The notes beneath the pieces were generated by a model, which saw nothing but the letters and a program-made list of their open reading frames with translations, made no database searches and had not been told where the DNA came from. From contig NZ_CP032869.1 of NCBI RefSeq assembly GCF_003576455.2, positions 2,418,001-2,482,000 of the forward strand: a stretch of DNA of 64,000 nucleotides, read 5' to 3'. This DNA is from Mucilaginibacter celer (GTDB lineage Bacteria; Bacteroidota; Bacteroidia; Sphingobacteriales; Sphingobacteriaceae). Positions 2,794-27,166 of the stretch are shown here, piece after piece. The first letter of the stretch is position 1; every line of letters starts with the position of its first letter. The position numbers and the translations under genes are program-made.

Positions 2794-2801
2794 CAAACTT
2801 A
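2794..2801 (-). promoter_or_regulatory. Putative -7 promoter box for the hybrid sensor
   Basis: On the minus strand this reads TAAGTTTG, an exact match to the Bacteroidota -7 consensus TAnnTTTG. It lies exactly 33 nt from operator copy A, and the same box at the same distance flanks copy B. Transcription would start near 2789, leaving a leader of about 190 nt before the sensor start. Confidence 0.55.
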
Positions 2802-2833
2802 TAGCAAATAAATGATACACTGTTATTCAAAAT

Positions 2834-2863
2834 GGACTTTTTATTGTAAAAATCCGACTTTTT
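2834..2863. promoter_or_regulatory. Operator copy A: 21-bp-spaced direct repeat
   Basis: The 30-bp site holds GACTTTTT at 2835 and again at 2856, a 21-bp period. Near-identical copies lie at 4014-4043 (27 of 30 bases identical on the opposite strand) and 25831-25860. Direct half-sites 21 bp apart are the known geometry of AraC-family sites such as araI1-araI2. It lies between the divergent sensor and AraC genes. The rest of the 2603-2925 gap shows nothing else recognisable. Confidence 0.7.
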
Positions 2864-2925
2864 GATATCCAATACGCTCAGATACATTGGGGTATATCAA
2901 AGCAAATTGCATATTTGTGTTTCAG

Positions 2926-3813
2926 ATGATTAAACGAAATTTAAAACACACGTTCTCTCTGCTCAATGTTGACTATGTAAAGTTGAACGCTAAATGGAAT
3001 TACAGGAATGTAATCAGCCCATATTACCGAATTTATTACATAGATAGCGGCGAAGGAGAGTTGTCAGATGCAGCTGGATCATTAAAACTTGAACCGGGTT
3101 ACCTGTACATCATTCCGAGTTTCACCCTTTGTAGCTTAAGCTGCACCGACTACCTGGGGCAGTTCTTTGTTCAATTTTTTGAAGATTCGGTAGACGGAAG
3201 CTCTCTTTTTGCCGATAACAGGGTGATATTAAAAGCAAAGGCCACTGAAATGGACATTGCTCTTTTCAACAGGTTGCTTCAGATAAACCCTGGCAGAGGG
3301 ATTAATCGATCTGATAACCCCAAAGTTTATGAAAAAGACATTTATTATAAGGAGTATCAGGAGCTTAACAACCAACAAAATATTTCTACGTACCTCGAAA
3401 CGCAGGCGATCCTGACCATGTTGACTGCAAAATTCCTAAATCCGCAATTATTTAAGCATCCCGAGCAGAAAAACATACCAGTTAAAATTGCAGAAACTCT
3501 AAATTACATCCTTGTCAATTTGCATCAGGACCTCTCGGTAAACCGGCTTGCTTCCCGGGCCAATCAAAATGTCGATTATTTTTCAAGGCTGTTTAAGCAG
3601 CACACGGGAGCCAGGCCATTGAATTATATCAATGAAAAACGTGTTGAACGCGCACAGTACCTGATGGCTACAAGTCGAATGTCGTACTCTGAAATATGCG
3701 CGCAAACCGGTTTTATCAACCTTTCCTATTTTTCTAAAACATTTAAAAAGCTAACAGGCACTTCGCCCAGCGAATACAAAAAGCAGATGTACCAGGTTTG
3801 TTTTAATCATTAG
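2926..3813 (+). CDS. AraC-family transcriptional regulator
   Basis: A 295-residue one-component regulator. An N-terminal cupin-like sensing region includes SPYYRIYYIDSGEGELSD and EPGYLYIIPSF. The C-terminal double helix-turn-helix occupies roughly 200-295, with LASRANQNVDYFSRLFKQ and the typical second-helix signature FINLSYFSKTFKKLTGTSP. The start at MIKRNL is preferred over one 13 codons upstream because the paralogous remnant at 25.9 kb is homologous from MIKRN onward. It lies between the hybrid sensor (divergent) and the GH29 remnant/GH97/fucP genes. It is the best candidate protein for the three 21-bp direct-repeat operators, by inference from AraC-family binding geometry. The ligand is unknown; fucose or a fucoside is plausible from context. 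Confidence 0.93.
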   Translation: MIKRNLKHTFSLLNVDYVKLNAKWNYRNVISPYYRIYYIDSGEGELSDAAGSLKLEPGYLYIIPSFTLCSLSCTDYLGQFFVQFFEDSVDGSSLFADNRVILKAKATEMDIALFNRLLQINPGRGINRSDNPKVYEKDIYYKEYQELNNQQNISTYLETQAILTMLTAKFLNPQLFKHPEQKNIPVKIAETLNYILVNLHQDLSVNRLASRANQNVDYFSRLFKQHTGARPLNYINEKRVERAQYLMATSRMSYSEICAQTGFINLSYFSKTFKKLTGTSPSEYKKQMYQVCFNH

Positions 3814-4013: not shown

Positions 4014-4043
4014 AAAAAGTCGGTTTTGTACAAAAAAAAGTCC
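4014..4043. promoter_or_regulatory. Operator copy C upstream of the GH29 remnant/GH97/fucP operon
   Basis: Reverse-strand copy of the operator, with GACTTTTT half-sites again 21 bp apart (first bases at 4042 and 4021 on the minus strand). A -7-like box GACATTTG (7 of 8 to TAnnTTTG) lies at 4076-4083, exactly 33 nt away, as at the other two copies. The rest of the 3814-4220 gap shows no gene or clear terminator. Confidence 0.68.
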
Positions 4044-4075
4044 TATTAGGTCAATTATTTAAATCTTATTTCCAT

Positions 4076-4083
4076 GACATTTG
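4076..4083 (+). promoter_or_regulatory. Putative -7 box for the GH29 remnant/GH97/fucP operon
   Basis: GACATTTG differs from TAnnTTTG at the first base only. It is assigned because its distance from operator C equals that of the exact TAAGTTTG boxes from operators A and B. Confidence 0.4.
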
Positions 4084-4220: not shown

Positions 4221-4547
4221 ATGAAAAGAAGAGCATTAATAAAAGGCTTAGCCGCAGGCGTATCATCGCTGTACCTGTCGAGGGGATTTGCAAGTAGCCT
4301 TATTCAAACAAATTTAAACGCCGAGACCACTTCCGGACCATTCAAGTCCGGCTGGGATTCGTTAACCCAATACCAGGTACCCGAATGGTTTCGTGATGCC
4401 AAATTCGGGATTTGGGCGCATTGGGGCCCGCAATGTCCGCCCGAACGGGGCGACTGGTACGCACGGGGCATGTACCAGGAAGGCAAACTGCCGGAACAGG
4501 CTCCTGGTAAAGAAGCGTTTGTTTTAAAAATAGAAGGAGCTGTATAA
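4221..4547 (+). pseudogene. GH29 alpha-L-fucosidase remnant with in-frame internal deletion
   Basis: The 108 codons join the start of a GH29 fucosidase to its end. The N-terminus (Tat-like MKRRALIKG, then YQVPEWFRDAKFGIWAHWGPQ and GDWYARGMYQEG) matches the intact GH29 at 25.7-24.0 kb. After MYQEG the sequence jumps to KLPEQAPGKEAFVLKIEGAV, which matches the C-terminal end of the intact enzyme (RLPEQPAYVFRISGAIS). About 430 residues, including the catalytic barrel, are missing while the frame is kept. The product cannot be a fucosidase. Its stop codon TAA overlaps the GH97 start (TAATG), so translation of this small frame may still feed GH97 by coupling. That coupling would explain why the frame survived. 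Confidence 0.85.
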
Positions 4548-6499
4548 TGATGAACCTAAAAGCCTGCTGCAACTTTGTTGCTGCCACTCTGATGACAATT
4601 CCGGCTTTCGCACAATCCTTTAAGCTGGTATCGCCGGATAAAAAAGTTATTGTGGAAGTGAGCAATACCGGCAGCCTGAAATATACTGTTTCAAGCGATG
4701 GGCTAACCATCGTTTATCCTTCATTACTCGGTTTTGAGTTTAAGGATGAACCGGCGATGGGGACCAATATGACTGTGACCGATCATAAGGAGCATTCCAT
4801 AAACCAAACCTGGGTACCTGTAGTAAAAGCCAAACACAGCCTGATAACCGACCGTTACAATGAACTGGAATTAAACCTGATAGAGAAATCAGCACCAATG
4901 CGCCGCATGACGATGTGGTTCAGGGCTTATAATGATGGGGTTGCTTTTCGCTACCAGCTATTTGGGGCTGATAAGATAGGCGACGGGCAAATCGTAAAAG
5001 AACTTACTGATTTTAATTTATCTGCAAAAGCAAAAACCTGGGTTGCAGATTATGGCAGCTACACCAGTTCGCAGGAAACTGAGTTTAAAGCTAAAAACCT
5101 GCACCACATTACCAATAAAACCATCGCGGGCTTACCCCTGCTGGTAGAACTGGACGAACACCATTACGCCGCTTTTACAGAAGCCAATATTGATAATTAT
5201 CCTGGATTTTATATCGGCTCAACGCAAACTGACACCGTTGCAACCGAAAAGATCAGCCTGACCACTAAGCTGTCGCCCTTGCCCGGCGAAGGTGAAGATG
5301 GTGTTAAGGCGCGCTTTACCAATAACGTGTTTACCCCATGGCGTGTAGTAATGCTGGCAGGTACACCGGGTAAACTGATCGAATCTGAACTGATACAAAA
5401 CCTTAATCCGCCGTGCGTACTTAAAGATGCCGGCTGGATCAGGCCAGGCATGAGCGCCTGGGACAACTGGTGGAGCGGAGATGTAAAAGTGGATATGCCA
5501 ACCATAAAAAAATATATTGACCTGGCATCAAAAGAACACTGGCCTTATATGCTTATTGATTGGCAATGGTATGGACCGTTTAACAGGCCTGACGCGGACA
5601 TCACTAAAGTTGCCCCGCAGTTAAACATGCCGGAGATTTTAGCCTATGCTAAAGCAAAAAATGTTAAGTGCTGGCTTTGGCTCTACAGTTCGGATGTTAA
5701 CCGGAATGATAATTTTGAAAAAGCGTTCCCCCTTTACGAGCAATGGGGTATTGCGGGTATAAAAATTGATTTTATGGATCGCGACGATCAGCAGATGGTA
5801 AACTGGTACCGGCTGATTATTCAAACCGCGGCGGAATATCATTTAATGGTTGATTTTCATGGCGCTTTTAAACCAGATGGCATTGAGCGGACATATCCTA
5901 ATATGGTAACCCGCGAGGGTGTTTTGGGAGAGGAGTATTCCAAGTTTTCTACCAGGATAACAGCAGGGCATAATACCACCTTACCCTTCACCCGGATGCT
6001 GGCCGGGCCAATGGATTATACTCCAGGCGGCTTCATCAATGTAAAGAAAAGCGATTTCAGGCAAGGAAGCCCTACCCAGATAATGAACAGCCGTTGTGCC
6101 GAGTTAGCCAAATTTGTGATTTATGAAAGCCCGTTTACGGTTTACTGCGATGCACCTGAAAATATCCTGGGGCAGCCTGGTGCCGATTTTCTAAACAAGA
6201 TTCCTACCGTTTGGGATGATATTAAAGTACTTGGCGGTTATCCCGGCCAATACGTTATTATCGCCAAAAGAAGCGGGAAAGACTGGTATATTGGCGCGAT
6301 GACCAACGAATCAGAAAGAACGATACAGTTTAAAACGGATTTTTTACCAGCCGGCAATTACATACTGACATCATGGGCAGATGTATTATCGTTTCCCAAA
6401 AACCTTACCCGGTCTGAAAGGACGGTATCCGCTAACTCTGTAATCAACATTCGTATGGATAGCGCAGGCGGATGGGTTGGTAAAATAACAGGGAAATAG
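4547..6499 (+). CDS. GH97 glycoside hydrolase, retaining (alpha-galactosidase-like)
   Basis: A 650-residue secreted glycosidase with a signal peptide ending near AFAQS. It has the GH97 N-terminal beta-sandwich (roughly 25-290), a TIM barrel starting around WIRPGMSAWDNWW, and a C-terminal beta domain. The motif GIKIDFMDRDDQQ places an Asp at about residue 408 as the likely nucleophile, as in the retaining branch typified by BtGH97b. The inverting SusB type lacks this nucleophile. TREGVLGEE probably supplies the acid/base Glu. The expected substrate is a terminal alpha-galactoside, though alpha-glucoside cannot be excluded. The start overlaps the stop of the GH29 remnant, and fucP follows 51 bp downstream, so the three form one operon under operator C. 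Confidence 0.93.
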   Translation: MMNLKACCNFVAATLMTIPAFAQSFKLVSPDKKVIVEVSNTGSLKYTVSSDGLTIVYPSLLGFEFKDEPAMGTNMTVTDHKEHSINQTWVPVVKAKHSLITDRYNELELNLIEKSAPMRRMTMWFRAYNDGVAFRYQLFGADKIGDGQIVKELTDFNLSAKAKTWVADYGSYTSSQETEFKAKNLHHITNKTIAGLPLLVELDEHHYAAFTEANIDNYPGFYIGSTQTDTVATEKISLTTKLSPLPGEGEDGVKARFTNNVFTPWRVVMLAGTPGKLIESELIQNLNPPCVLKDAGWIRPGMSAWDNWWSGDVKVDMPTIKKYIDLASKEHWPYMLIDWQWYGPFNRPDADITKVAPQLNMPEILAYAKAKNVKCWLWLYSSDVNRNDNFEKAFPLYEQWGIAGIKIDFMDRDDQQMVNWYRLIIQTAAEYHLMVDFHGAFKPDGIERTYPNMVTREGVLGEEYSKFSTRITAGHNTTLPFTRMLAGPMDYTPGGFINVKKSDFRQGSPTQIMNSRCAELAKFVIYESPFTVYCDAPENILGQPGADFLNKIPTVWDDIKVLGGYPGQYVIIAKRSGKDWYIGAMTNESERTIQFKTDFLPAGNYILTSWADVLSFPKNLTRSERTVSANSVINIRMDSAGGWVGKITGK

Positions 6500-6550: not shown

Positions 6551-7819
6551 ATGACAAAGAATAACACGCTTTTTCCTTTTATATTAATAACCAGTTTATT
6601 CTTTCTGTGGGGCTTTGCGCACAACCTCGACCCTATACTGATACCACACTTAAAAAAATCGTTTACGCTGACTACGGTCCAGGCCACCCTTGTTGATTCG
6701 GCGGTATTTATAGCCTATTTCCTGATGGCTTTACCGGCCGGTTTTATCATGAAAAAATATGGCTACAAAGCGGGCATTATTACCGGCCTTCTTGTTTTCG
6801 CATTGGGCTCATACCTGTTTATACCTGCCGCCAATACGCAACAATACACGTTTTTCCTGGTAGCTTTATTTATTATAGCATGCGGATTAACTATTTTAGA
6901 AACCGCAGCCAACCCCTACGCCTCCTCATTGGGCAACCCGGCAACATCCACACAGAGGCTTAACTTTGCACAATCGTTTAACGGGCTGGCCACCACACTT
7001 GCACCGATAATTGGTGCACGTATTATATTAACCAAAGGTTATACAGAGATTCAATTAAACCGAATGACAGAAGAAGGCCGAAAACTGGCGCTGGCTGCCG
7101 AGGCATCATCTGTAAAAATGCCTTATTTTATATTAGGTAGTGTGCTGTTATTTATAGCCATACTTTTTGCATTTACACGCTTGCCACGCATTAAGCAACA
7201 TGAGGGACATGCAGCCAGCAAAAACATTTTCCATGCCTTGAAGCACCGTCACTTAGCCTGGGGTGTTGCCGCCCAATTCTTTTATGTAGGCGCCCAGGTT
7301 TGTGTTTTCAGCCTGTTTATCCTTTACGCCACAAAATCGGCCGGTATTACGGAACTGAAAGCGGCAGATTACCTTGGTTTATGTGGTTTCGCATTCCTGG
7401 CAGGCAGGTTTATCGGTACATTTTTAATGCGGTATTACAGCTCGGCACTTTTACTTGCGGTTTACGCCGGCGTGAGCGCTTTGCTTTGTATAATTGCCGT
7501 ATTAGGTCACGGCATGATCACCATTTACACCGTAATCGGTATATGTTTCTTTATGTCGATCATGTTCCCAACGATATTTGCGCTTGGTATAAAAGACCTG
7601 AAGGCAGATACGGAATTTGGCAGCAGTCTCATCATCATGTCGATAGTTGGCGGCGCGGTTTTGCCGAGGGCTTTCGGCTATATCAGCGATATAACGGGCA
7701 ATATTCAATATGGTTACCTGGTACCTATGGTTTGCTTCGCCGTGGTGGCATATTTCGGGTTGAAAGGTCACCACGTAAAAGTAAAGCCCGAAAACATACC
7801 GGTATCAGCAATTCTTTAA
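6551..7819 (+). CDS. fucP: FucP-type MFS sugar permease
   Basis: A 422-residue inner-membrane transporter of the L-fucose:H+ symporter (FHS) family, close to the family's usual length. The N-terminal region FPFILITSLFFLWGFAHNLDPILIPHL and the segment GLTILETAANPYASSLG are typical of FucP, GluP and NagP permeases. Twelve hydrophobic segments are expected. It would import the monosaccharide released by the linked fucosidase/GH97 enzymes; fucose is the simplest guess, but the family also takes glucose, galactose and GlcNAc. No fucose catabolic genes are present in the window. Its 3' end overlaps a truncated response regulator on the other strand. Confidence 0.9.
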   Translation: MTKNNTLFPFILITSLFFLWGFAHNLDPILIPHLKKSFTLTTVQATLVDSAVFIAYFLMALPAGFIMKKYGYKAGIITGLLVFALGSYLFIPAANTQQYTFFLVALFIIACGLTILETAANPYASSLGNPATSTQRLNFAQSFNGLATTLAPIIGARIILTKGYTEIQLNRMTEEGRKLALAAEASSVKMPYFILGSVLLFIAILFAFTRLPRIKQHEGHAASKNIFHALKHRHLAWGVAAQFFYVGAQVCVFSLFILYATKSAGITELKAADYLGLCGFAFLAGRFIGTFLMRYYSSALLLAVYAGVSALLCIIAVLGHGMITIYTVIGICFFMSIMFPTIFALGIKDLKADTEFGSSLIIMSIVGGAVLPRAFGYISDITGNIQYGYLVPMVCFAVVAYFGLKGHHVKVKPENIPVSAIL

Positions 7820-23801: not shown

Positions 23802-23965
23802 TGTTTAATTAATTGATTTTAAAATTATATAAATTTTATCATTCCGTTAAATTTATCTACAACAATCACAACAAACCTGTTACAAATGCCCGGATCAAGG
23901 TGTAAGCGGCATTTACATTTTATAGATTTATGATTATGTAGATGAGCTTTTTGCTGGAAATAACA

Positions 23966-24024
23966 GAAAAAAGCCGCCACTCTCTAACATTCGCAACAAT
24001 GCGGGTTGTTAGAAAGGCGGCGGC
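23966..24024 (-). terminator. Intrinsic terminator after the intact GH29 gene
   Basis: On the minus strand GCCGCCGCCTTTCTAACA and TGTTAGAGAGTGGCGGC form a long imperfect stem (arms 24024 to 23973). Six T follow (complement of 23967-23972). It begins 24 nt after the GH29 stop codon. Confidence 0.8.
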
Positions 24025-24047
24025 TATTTAGCCTTCATGCCTAAAAA

Positions 24048-25673
24048 TCACGAAATCGCACCGCTTATTCTGAATACATAAGCAGGTTGCTCAGGTAATC
24101 GTTCGGGGACAGTGATAGCGAGGCCATCCTGGTTTGCTTTAAAATCAATTTTCGACTCGTAACCCAATAAACTTACTGCCGAAATAGCGTTTTTATTAGC
24201 CAAGCTTTTTATTAGCACATTATTATCCGGCTTGCCCATCACTATGGCATATAGCTCGCCTTGTTTGGTAGTAAAACGAATATCCGCGGCAGCGAATGCT
24301 TTTCCCTTTCCTTCGTTAAATCCCTGTGCCGCTAAAGGTGCCGCGCCTTCTGATGCGGGCCCCTCGCCAAATTTCATCCAGGGCCTGGTACCGTATATGG
24401 CCTCGCCGTTTACCTGCATCCAGGCGGCAATACCCTCAACAATGGCACGCTCTTTTTCGTCGATAGAACCATTGCCGCGTACAGGAACGCTCAGCAACAG
24501 GTTGCCGTTTTTGCTCACCACATCCGCAAGGGTATGAACAACCGTTTTGGCTGATTTATATTTATTTTCATCATAAACACGTTTATCGTAATGCCAATTA
24601 CCTATGCAGGTATCCGTTTGCCATGGCAAAGGTTCAATCTCGTTACTTTGGCCGCGCTCAATATCCCAAACCATACATTTACGCTGCTGTTCATCTAAAA
24701 TCTTGCCATTTAACACAGCATTCAGTTTCCCATATTTATTAATACTGGCGTTATACAGGTCGGCTGCAAGTTGAAGGCCAACGTTGCTCACCGGCCACAG
24801 CGGAAGCACCGTGTCGTCATAATACATCAGGTCGGGCTGATAATTATCTATTATCGTTTTTATACGTTTATAAAAACGGTCACAATATTCTTTTGATGGC
24901 GGATAAGCGCCGTCGGCCCAGGCCCATTGATTATTATTATCTTTCCCTTTGGCGCTTAAGGGATGGCGCTGGGAATAGAGATCTTGCGGATTAAATCCGT
25001 CCCACCATTTTCCTTTACCTTCAGATGCCGTCGTATTACCATCATAAGGAATACCTTTTAACGGCCCATCCTTATCAGCCTGCTGGGCAACCTCATACCA
25101 ACTCCAGGCATGCGACGCATGTACACTTACACCAAAAGGAAGTTCATTTACCCTGGCTGCTTCGGCCCAACCTTTAAGCAGATCCTTTTTGGGGCCAATC
25201 CGGGTTGAATTCCACCGCTGATAAGGATTAGGATACAAGTCAAAATTATCATGGTGATTGGCCAGCGCCACAAAATATTTCGCTCCCGCTTTTTTATACA
25301 ATGAAACCAATTCGTTAGGGTCCCATTGATCGGCCTTCCATTCGTTAATTACATCTTTAAAACCGAACTTTGACGGGTGCCCGTATTTTTTACAATGGTA
25401 TTTGTACTGATCGCTGCCCTCCTCATACATGCCGCGGGCATACCAGTCGCCATATTCGGGTTGGCATTGCGGCCCCCAATGCGCCCAGATACCAAATTTG
25501 GCATCCCTGAACCAATCCGGCACCTGGTAATTGGAAAGCGAGTTCCAGGTAGGTTGAAAATGAGCGGAAAGACCAGATGCGTCATGCTGCACCGCAGTAC
25601 GGGCAAAAAGTTTTGAAAGGTAAATAGAGGAAACGGCTGTTAATCCTCCCTTTATTAGCGTTCTTCTGTTCAT
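24048..25673 (-). CDS. GH29 alpha-L-fucosidase (intact copy)
   Basis: 541 residues with a Tat-like signal (MNRRTLIKGG, twin Arg) for export to the periplasm. GH29 barrel motifs are present: WFRDAKFGIWAHWGPQ, ALANHHDNFDLY and PDLMYYDDTVLPLW. Asp286, the first Asp after YY, is the likely nucleophile. A C-terminal beta-sandwich ends at RLPEQPAYVFRISGAIS. It removes terminal alpha-L-fucose. It is monocistronic with its own terminator and is driven from a promoter beside operator copy B. A deleted paralogue lies at 4.2 kb. It is divergent from a broken AraC gene that resembles the intact AraC at 2.9 kb. Confidence 0.95.
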   Translation of the reverse strand: MNRRTLIKGGLTAVSSIYLSKLFARTAVQHDASGLSAHFQPTWNSLSNYQVPDWFRDAKFGIWAHWGPQCQPEYGDWYARGMYEEGSDQYKYHCKKYGHPSKFGFKDVINEWKADQWDPNELVSLYKKAGAKYFVALANHHDNFDLYPNPYQRWNSTRIGPKKDLLKGWAEAARVNELPFGVSVHASHAWSWYEVAQQADKDGPLKGIPYDGNTTASEGKGKWWDGFNPQDLYSQRHPLSAKGKDNNNQWAWADGAYPPSKEYCDRFYKRIKTIIDNYQPDLMYYDDTVLPLWPVSNVGLQLAADLYNASINKYGKLNAVLNGKILDEQQRKCMVWDIERGQSNEIEPLPWQTDTCIGNWHYDKRVYDENKYKSAKTVVHTLADVVSKNGNLLLSVPVRGNGSIDEKERAIVEGIAAWMQVNGEAIYGTRPWMKFGEGPASEGAAPLAAQGFNEGKGKAFAAADIRFTTKQGELYAIVMGKPDNNVLIKSLANKNAISAVSLLGYESKIDFKANQDGLAITVPERLPEQPAYVFRISGAIS

Positions 25674-25790: not shown

Positions 25791-25798
25791 CAAACTTA
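25791..25798 (-). promoter_or_regulatory. Putative -7 box of the GH29 gene
   Basis: TAAGTTTG on the minus strand, identical to the box at operator A and likewise 33 nt from its operator. The expected transcript start near 25787 leaves a leader of about 115 nt. Confidence 0.55.
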
Positions 25799-25830
25799 GT
25801 ACCTTTACTGTTCAAAAATTTGCATAAACT

Positions 25831-25860
25831 TGACTTTTTTTTGTAAAAATCCGACTTTGG
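25831..25860. promoter_or_regulatory. Operator copy B: 21-bp-spaced direct repeat
   Basis: GACTTTTT and GACTTT half-sites begin at 25832 and 25853, a 21-bp period. The element shares its core TTGTAAAAATCCGACTTT with copy A. It lies between the divergent GH29 gene and the AraC remnant. Confidence 0.7.
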
Positions 25861-25915: not shown

Positions 25916-26146
25916 ATGATTAAAAGAAACTTCGGGCACAGCTTTTCGCTACTTAATATTGATTACGTTAAACTTAATCCAAAATGGAATTACGAAAATG
26001 TAATAAGCCCATACTATCGCATTTATTATATAGATGATGGTGAAGGAAATTTATCAGATACCACGCATTCACTCAAATTAGAAGCCGGTTACTTATACAC
26101 GCTGAAGTGGGCTACGGCGGATGAAATCCGCCAGCGGCTTATTTAG
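25916..26146 (+). pseudogene. Truncated AraC-family regulator
   Basis: From MIKRNFGHSFSLLNIDYVKL through EAGYLYT this matches the first 60 or so residues of the AraC protein at 2.9 kb. The match breaks near base 26100, where IIPSF in the intact gene is replaced by unrelated LKWATADEIRQRLI and a stop. The whole DNA-binding half is missing, so the gene is dead. It marks the right-hand breakpoint of the PUL region. Confidence 0.85.
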
Positions 26147-26293: not shown

Positions 26294-27166
26294 TTACGAT
26301 TTTATGGAATCTTCTATGTAATCAGCAATTTCAACGTATATTTCTTCTCTGCCATTTTCATCAAGTTTACTTAATGGTTTTTTAGGATCGTTTATCGCCT
26401 GAAATATTGAGAGATTTGGATCCCTCGTAAACCTGCAAGGCTTCACTATTACCGGTAATATTATTTTTCCGTGCTCCTCGGCTAATTTGAGTAAAGGTGG
26501 CAATTCATTATCTATTATAAAGTCTGAAGCCAAAAAATCCGCGCTGATAAGTAAAATAGCAATCGAGCACTTATCCAGCGCCTTTTCAATTCTTTCTTTC
26601 CACTTTTCTCCTGCTTTTATTTTGGTGTCCTCCCATAAGTCGATTAAACCTCTTTTTTCAAACGGTCGCAGATGAACTTTAAGCCTATTTAAATATTGAC
26701 TATCCGCATGAGAATAGCTTACAAAAACAGATTTTATTTTTTCCTTTGCCTTTTCAAATTTTGCACTCTCCTTTAAAAAGAAGTCACCAAAATCCTTATG
26801 TGATAGAAAATTTCTTATTGGCGTTATTAAAGTCTGCTGCAATCGTTCTCTATCATAAATTATTACTCTGACAGCAGCAATATCAAAAGGGATATTGTCT
26901 CCGCGCTGCGCTAAAGGCAAAATCGGGATGCCGGATGATTGAGCATATCCTAATTCATACATCACATTAGGATTATGTCCTGAAATGTCGGCAATTACAA
27001 GATCTACATTTTTAATTTGATCCTGAACTTGCTCAATGATGGTGCCTGTAGAATAGAGTTCATTCGCGGTAATAATGTTATGACCAAGTCCTGCGCTTGT
27101 TTCCCTAATTAAAAAGGATATATCATCAAATGCTGCTCCAAAGGGAATAGCTAAAAATATGTTCAT
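26294..27166 (-). CDS. Two-domain TIR-like protein, possible defence effector
   Basis: 290 residues. The N-terminal domain (1-125) resembles nucleoside 2-deoxyribosyltransferase/TIR-like folds, with VIADISGHNPNVMYELGYA at 57-75 (Asp60, Asn67, Glu71) and GIPILPLAQR. A charged helix (about 128-145) leads to a TIR_2-type domain (146-290): VFVSYSHADSQYLNRLK, IDLWEDTKIKAGEKW, IAILLISADFLASDFIIDNE. Glu221 is a candidate NADase Glu by position. No signal peptide or membrane segment is seen. It stands alone between the broken AraC gene and tRNA-Leu, in DNA visibly richer in AT than its neighbours, which suggests transfer. TIR domains in bacteria often cleave NAD in antiphage defence, but no partner gene is next to it. 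Confidence 0.8.
   Translation of the reverse strand: MNIFLAIPFGAAFDDISFLIRETSAGLGHNIITANELYSTGTIIEQVQDQIKNVDLVIADISGHNPNVMYELGYAQSSGIPILPLAQRGDNIPFDIAAVRVIIYDRERLQQTLITPIRNFLSHKDFGDFFLKESAKFEKAKEKIKSVFVSYSHADSQYLNRLKVHLRPFEKRGLIDLWEDTKIKAGEKWKERIEKALDKCSIAILLISADFLASDFIIDNELPPLLKLAEEHGKIILPVIVKPCRFTRDPNLSIFQAINDPKKPLSKLDENGREEIYVEIADYIEDSIKS

Follow-up and report, generated by a model that had tools for sequence, protein, structure and literature searches.

A sequence element of about 41 bp, present three times in the analysed window (64,000 nucleotides of the single-contig genome of Mucilaginibacter celer), in all likelihood serves as the operator for an AraC-family activator that responds to fucose and whose gene lies at positions 2926-3813 of the same window. 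Each copy carries two half-sites in direct repeat and is followed at a fixed distance by a -7 promoter box. The operator and its distance to the box recur in relatives from two classes of Bacteroidota, and within the family the genomes that hold the operator also hold the AraC-family protein, with a single exception.

The operator and its -7 box in the window

Operator A (2823-2863, minus strand) faces the gene of a hybrid two-component sensor (HTCS), operator B (4014-4054, plus strand) faces an operon composed of a GH29 remnant, GH97 and fucP, and operator C (25820-25860, minus strand) faces an intact GH29 gene. A preliminary description of this DNA had placed three copies of a 30-bp operator at 2834-2863, 4014-4043 and 25831-25860; these coordinates were confirmed, and the boxes assigned to the copies were found where it had put them. 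The -7 boxes of operators A (2794-2801, minus strand) and C (25791-25798, minus strand) both read TAAGTTTG, and that of operator B (4076-4083, plus strand) reads GACATTTG. All three lie 33 nt from the core, a distance that starts at the final base of the inner GTC (measured from the edge of the 30-bp element it is 32 nt). TAnnTTTG, described as the Bacteroidetes -7 consensus in PMC7366714, is matched exactly in two of the three copies. The box of operator B is off-consensus, and GAAATTTG occupies the equivalent position in sites from 14 relatives.

The 27-bp cores of the operators (2835-2861, 4016-4042 and 25832-25858) read AAAGTCGG[A/T]TTT[T/G]TACAA[T/A]AAAAAGTC on the promoter strand. Each half-site consists of two parts, an A-tract with GTC followed by WTT and YAA, and the two half-sites agree at these conserved columns with an offset of 21 bp. 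They differ elsewhere: only in the far half is GTC followed by GG and WTT by T-rich letters. The same half-site sequence had been proposed throughout, and this holds except in the third copy, where one half-site is GACTTTGG rather than GACTTTTT. When the column profile was compared with itself, the strongest repeat was at 21 bp, scoring 0.270 where the runner-up shift reached 0.104, and the proposal of two half-sites exactly 21 bp apart, in the geometry of AraC-family sites, was upheld by comparison with other genomes. The proposed length of 30 bp was too short. The second half-site extends 12 nt into the supposed gap and the operator therefore measures about 41 bp; the gap sequence, which had been called unconserved, begins with these 12 nt of operator. 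Between the end of the near half-site and the -7 box lie 21-22 nt, which puts that end at the position expected of a -33 element in this phylum (PMC7366714).

A 36-letter pattern spanning both half-sites, allowed up to three mismatches, matched exactly three sites among the 7,149,106 bases of the genome, all of them the window copies, and none in the reversed control; the many random copies that would have refuted the proposal did not appear. The specificity resides in the full element and not in the half-sites alone. The looser pair AAAGTC-n15-AAAGTC, with at most one mismatch, gave 52 matches in the whole genome against 201 in the reversed control, and half-site pairs with up to two mismatches gave seven matches within the window against 5.6 expected. 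Pairs of half-sites, being no commoner than in controls, were dropped as evidence. The genome (G000) is rich in AAGTC-type repeats, and dispersed AAGTCTTAAGTC-like repeats yield many loose half-site matches.

Operator and box in related genomes

The core was found with up to two mismatches in 65 of 399 genomes of the family, with seven matches in the reversed control. In total 80 stretches, each at most 20 kb long and surrounding an AraC orthologue or a site in such genomes, were selected by the presence of AraC or of the core, and not by the box. Together with the window they contain 86 distinct sites at up to three mismatches to a more degenerate consensus, all from Mucilaginibacter, Pedobacter and kin. 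TAnnTTTG, the -7 box of the Bacteroidetes primary-sigma promoter, was exact at 33 nt in 40 of these sites and at 34 nt in 28 (68 of 86), and only one further TAnnTTTG was found to start within the first 112 nt over all 86. Of the other 18 sites, 15 (including operator B of the window) carry GANATTTG at 33 nt, two have a one-letter variant of the box at 33 or 34 nt, and one has no box. The fixed 33-nt distance claimed in the preliminary description is correct for the three window copies, but in relatives it becomes 33 or 34 nt. When these sites were pooled with those of the second set described below, the exact box was present in 111 of 134 distinct sites, at 33 (55 sites) or 34 nt (56 sites), against 0.25 expected. 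Many sites stem from related genomes; after collapsing those alike at 60% identity or more, the exact box remained at 33 or 34 nt in 51 of 60 representatives.

A site matrix was built from the 86-site set with the box left out and run on 80 loci that an AraC alignment had located in named genomes. A site was present in 71 of these loci, and the matrix found none in L190-L193, L201, L205, L253, L262 and L263. A relaxed operator-plus-box architecture gave 64 matches in the 80 loci and none in the reversed sequences. Because many of these loci come from genomes already in the first set, the fair test is provided by the 23 loci whose titles do not place them in the Sphingobacteriaceae (20 from Chitinophaga, and one each from Arachidicoccus, Dyadobacter and a Bacteroidota MAG), which were unused in building the model. 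A site was present in 22 of the 23, TAnnTTTG stood at 33 or 34 nt in 20, and a GH29 gene started less than 700 nt downstream in 17. L232 and L237 carry a site but no box. The matrix overlooked the Dyadobacter locus, in which inspection by eye revealed a degenerate site with TAGCTTTG at 34 nt. Chitinophaga and Mucilaginibacter belong to different classes.

Putative target genes and the history of the locus

The probable target of operator A is the HTCS gene, the N-terminal part of which (Reg_prop and Y_Y_Y domains) is encoded at 1-2605 on the minus strand; the gene runs beyond the window and its C-terminal end is an AraC-type domain (L264). Operator B is followed on the plus strand by the GH29 remnant (4221-4547), the GH97 glycoside hydrolase gene (4547-6499) and fucP (6551-7819), whose product scored 368.9 bits for the L-fucose:H+ symporter family TIGR00885, above the cut-off of 280.4. 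In the remnant the first 88 codons are joined in frame to the last 20, leaving 264 nt of the start and 63 nt of the end of the gene, a clean in-frame deletion of 1320 nt relative to the GH29 gene of L108. Operator C faces the intact GH29 alpha-L-fucosidase gene (24048-25673, minus strand; PF01120 and PF16757), one of 11 GH29 matches that the genome contains besides the remnant.

A second AraC gene remnant lies near operator C (25916-26098, plus strand). It encodes only the N-terminal 61 residues, which share 80% identity with the AraC protein encoded at 2926, and is followed by unrelated DNA, of which 31 bp past the junction recur elsewhere in the genome, and by a TIR-domain gene (26294-27166). 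A common unit in relatives is a GH29 gene and an AraC gene arranged head to head with one site between them. As one unit in the window kept AraC with a cut GH29 and the other kept GH29 with a 61-residue AraC, the arrangement suggests that two such units decayed reciprocally, which would have left one regulator acting in trans on both.

For each of the 86 sites, the longest nearby open frame was taken as the first downstream gene; in a few cases this frame starts 400-580 nt away and the assignment is weaker. Names rest on Pfam matches for 11 representatives, and on sequence or similarity only for SusC, the HTCS of relatives and the sigma factor of L172. The first gene belonged to the GH29 cluster at 47 sites, to a second fucosidase cluster at seven, to HTCS at seven and to fucP-like MFS transporters at six. 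SusC, GH97 and GH42 genes followed three sites each, with operator B of the window counted under GH97, behind the GH29 remnant, and ECF sigma genes followed two. Single sites preceded genes for GH95, a third type of fucosidase, a zinc dehydrogenase and a RhaM-like mutarotase. Two targets in L131 are by appearance a short SusD-like fragment and a transposase, and two of the 86 sites have no frame. The three putative targets that the preliminary description had named for operators A, B and C, and its view of the regulon as small, hold up in the comparison across genomes. Insofar as the targets are mostly fucosidase and other fucose-related genes, we infer that the ligand is L-fucose or a fucoside.

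The regulon had also been described as separate from the sigma/FecR circuit. This is likely in the present genome, in which a strong terminator-like hairpin with a T-run (23950-24030, minus strand; -34.1 kcal/mol, z -6.6) lies between GH29 and the sigma gene, and in which no operator was found before sigma or susC with the full pattern at up to three mismatches. A simple terminator scan did not list this hairpin. The separation does not extend to all relatives, as the operator precedes ECF sigma genes in L161 and L172 and SusC genes in L108, L112 and L173, and a direct link between the operator regulon and the sigma/SusC circuits is possible in those cases.

The AraC-family regulator and its proposed mode of action

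The protein that binds the operators is very probably the AraC-family regulator encoded at 2926-3813 (plus strand; HTH_18 and HTH_AraC), which the preliminary description had already favored. With a presence threshold of E up to 1e-60, this protein was found in 64 of the 65 site-bearing genomes and in 37 of the 334 that have no site (399 genomes; Fisher 3e-46), and in the genus set of 105 genomes it was present in all 37 with a site. The lone site-bearing genome without the protein, G343, has a two-mismatch match that was taken for chance. As counter-evidence, 37 of the 101 AraC-bearing genomes lack a core match at up to two mismatches. Among AraC stretches fetched from ten such genomes, L126, L127 and L131 hold a site at one mismatch to the degenerate consensus and L118, L129, L132, L159 and L160 hold a weaker one, with TAnnTTTG at 33 or 34 nt in all eight; L117 has only a very poor site and L154 has none. 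An intact site beside AraC was sought in the Pedobacter loci L190-L193, whose AraC proteins are 83-84% identical, and half-sites at most were found; in L190 and L193 half-sites occur at altered spacing. For the similar set L152-L155, three of the four genomes (G336, G360 and G390) have sites elsewhere and G280 has none. Close AraC paralogues could share the site.

The regulator has a C-terminal AraC-type double helix-turn-helix (HTH; PF12833, 1.8e-21; PF00165, 6.4e-16). Its predicted structure (pLDDT 80, pTM 0.57) combines an AraC HTH domain with an N domain rich in beta structure. In Foldseek searches the C-terminal domain matched AraC-type DNA-binding domains, and the best full-length matches, which count against a sugar ligand, were ToxT and Rns, both binders of fatty acids rather than of sugars. 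The N domain matched less well, to the sugar-binding domain of AraC (2arc and 2aac) and the lactose sensor BgaR with E-values of 3e-6 to 3e-5, and these matches, scored as indicating an AraC-like ligand and dimerisation domain, were modest (TM-scores of 0.4-0.6 of the target, rmsd 9-12 A). Single-domain matches included AraC with arabinose or D-fucose. The predicted fold fits an AraC-type ligand domain without indicating which ligand. Named NCBIfam equivalog cut-offs were not reached among the best 25 of 28 families (PRK10572 scored best, 71.9 bits with a cut-off of 208; RhaS, 45.8 with a cut-off of 288). Upstream of the AraC start codon, CATATTTG (2910-2917, plus strand) is one letter off TAnnTTTG and is present in all nine close relatives printed. 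If this is the -7 box of the AraC gene itself, as is possible, the transcript would have only a very short leader and the box would lie back to back with operator A.

In the proposed mechanism, a dimer of the AraC-family protein would bind both direct-repeat half-sites on one face of the DNA, with the two contact patches of each half-site matched to the two HTH motifs of one subunit. A direct-repeat operator of about 21 bp beside a promoter is the arrangement of AraC-family sugar activators. Because of where the near half-site ends, the activator on the DNA probably either stands in for the -33 contact of the RNA polymerase sigma factor or touches it, and so would recruit polymerase. The inducer, presumably L-fucose or a fucoside, would switch on the HTCS gene, the GH29-remnant/GH97/fucP operon and the intact GH29 gene.

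The preliminary description had named the AraC-type output domain of the HTCS as an alternative binder, in which case the sensor would regulate its own gene. Operators of Bacteroides HTCS are described in PMC3878776 as direct repeats averaging 21 bp, and the gene downstream of operator A is the HTCS gene, an arrangement that recurs at sites in six relatives. Yet the site does not occur only together with the HTCS: an HTCS of at least 60% identity is missing from 13 of the 37 site-bearing genomes in the genus, and the three genus genomes that have one but not the AraC protein have no site (at most eight candidates per genome were scored, so an HTCS may have been overlooked). Only 30 of 102 aligned columns are identical between the output domain and the HTH region of the AraC protein, and an HTCS match was present in 9 of 60 fetched AraC-bearing stretches. 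On co-occurrence, neighborhood and this low identity the AraC protein is preferred, and binding by the HTCS appears highly improbable. The sites that face the HTCS in the window and in six relatives may instead belong to a cascade, in which the AraC protein would bind all three sites and the induced HTCS would control other promoters, so that sensing of the monosaccharide would lead on to sensing of the glycan. For arabinan in B. thetaiotaomicron, control shared between mono- and oligosaccharide signals is reported (PMC5061871), but an HTCS lies near only 9 of the 60 fetched AraC genes. Such a cascade is a real possibility, somewhat less likely than not, and it supplements activation by the AraC protein rather than replacing it.

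Repression, with the AraC protein bound near -33 and blocking polymerase until the inducer arrives, would also be compatible with an operator that extends into the -33 region, and E. coli AraC both represses and activates (PMC5061871). This reading is unlikely, since the rigid, one-sided spacing of 33 or 34 nt to the -7 box and the departures from the -7 consensus in part of the GH29 group would both fit dependence on an activator better. The similarity of the copies might lastly be a functionless leftover from duplication of a GH29-araC unit, as copies A and C both adjoin an AraC start codon, one of them in a remnant. Copy B, however, sits in another context, the site and its spacing to the box are kept where the surrounding DNA is not (the 51 of 60 representatives), and the arrangement is kept across two classes; this pattern of conservation rules the leftover out for practical purposes.

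AraC-family sugar activators with repeats of about 21 bp are already known as a kind. E. coli AraC at araI1-I2 and RhaS bind tandem half-sites with two contact patches each, the near half lying beside the -35 element, and the repeat of the E. coli AraC operator is 21 bp. The regulator and operator described here share with these systems the AraC HTH, an AraC-like N domain and tandem two-patch half-sites, and differ from them in half-site sequence, in the fucose-related target set, and in the Bacteroidetes -7/-33 promoter in place of -10/-35. RhaR of Bacteroides is likewise an AraC-family sugar regulator whose sites are given as direct repeats of 21-bp period (PMC3870299), a likeness of family and period; it serves a rhamnose operon. 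Bacteroides HTCS regulators share the AraC-type HTH and the average 21-bp repeat (PMC3878776) and are membrane-bound sensor-kinase fusions, in contrast to the single short AraC protein here. FucR (BT1272) of B. thetaiotaomicron also controls fucose genes in a Bacteroidetes member, but is listed as a GntR-family protein (PMC3878776, Table 2). Predicted FucR sites are shown in PMC5507952 for the fucose loci of four genomes, including that of a Bacteroidetes member, and these sites may overlap with the regulon described here. No description of this AraC fucose regulon was found in the literature searched (open-licence PMC papers).

It is about an even call whether the element represents a previously undescribed AraC-type fucose regulator, common to Sphingobacteriia and Chitinophagia, in which the near half-site, kept at a rigid spacing of 33 or 34 nt, occupies the place of the -33 element and provides a rule for predicting the start sites of activated Bacteroidota promoters, perhaps including HTCS promoters. 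Because HTCS regulators share the HTH type and the repeat spacing, the rule may extend to many polysaccharide-utilization promoters. The harvesting of fucose in soil Bacteroidota is probably under this regulator as a master switch, whereas the fucose regulator known from gut Bacteroides is of the GntR family. Its operator would define precisely how an activator of AraC type is placed relative to the unusual promoter of the Bacteroidetes.
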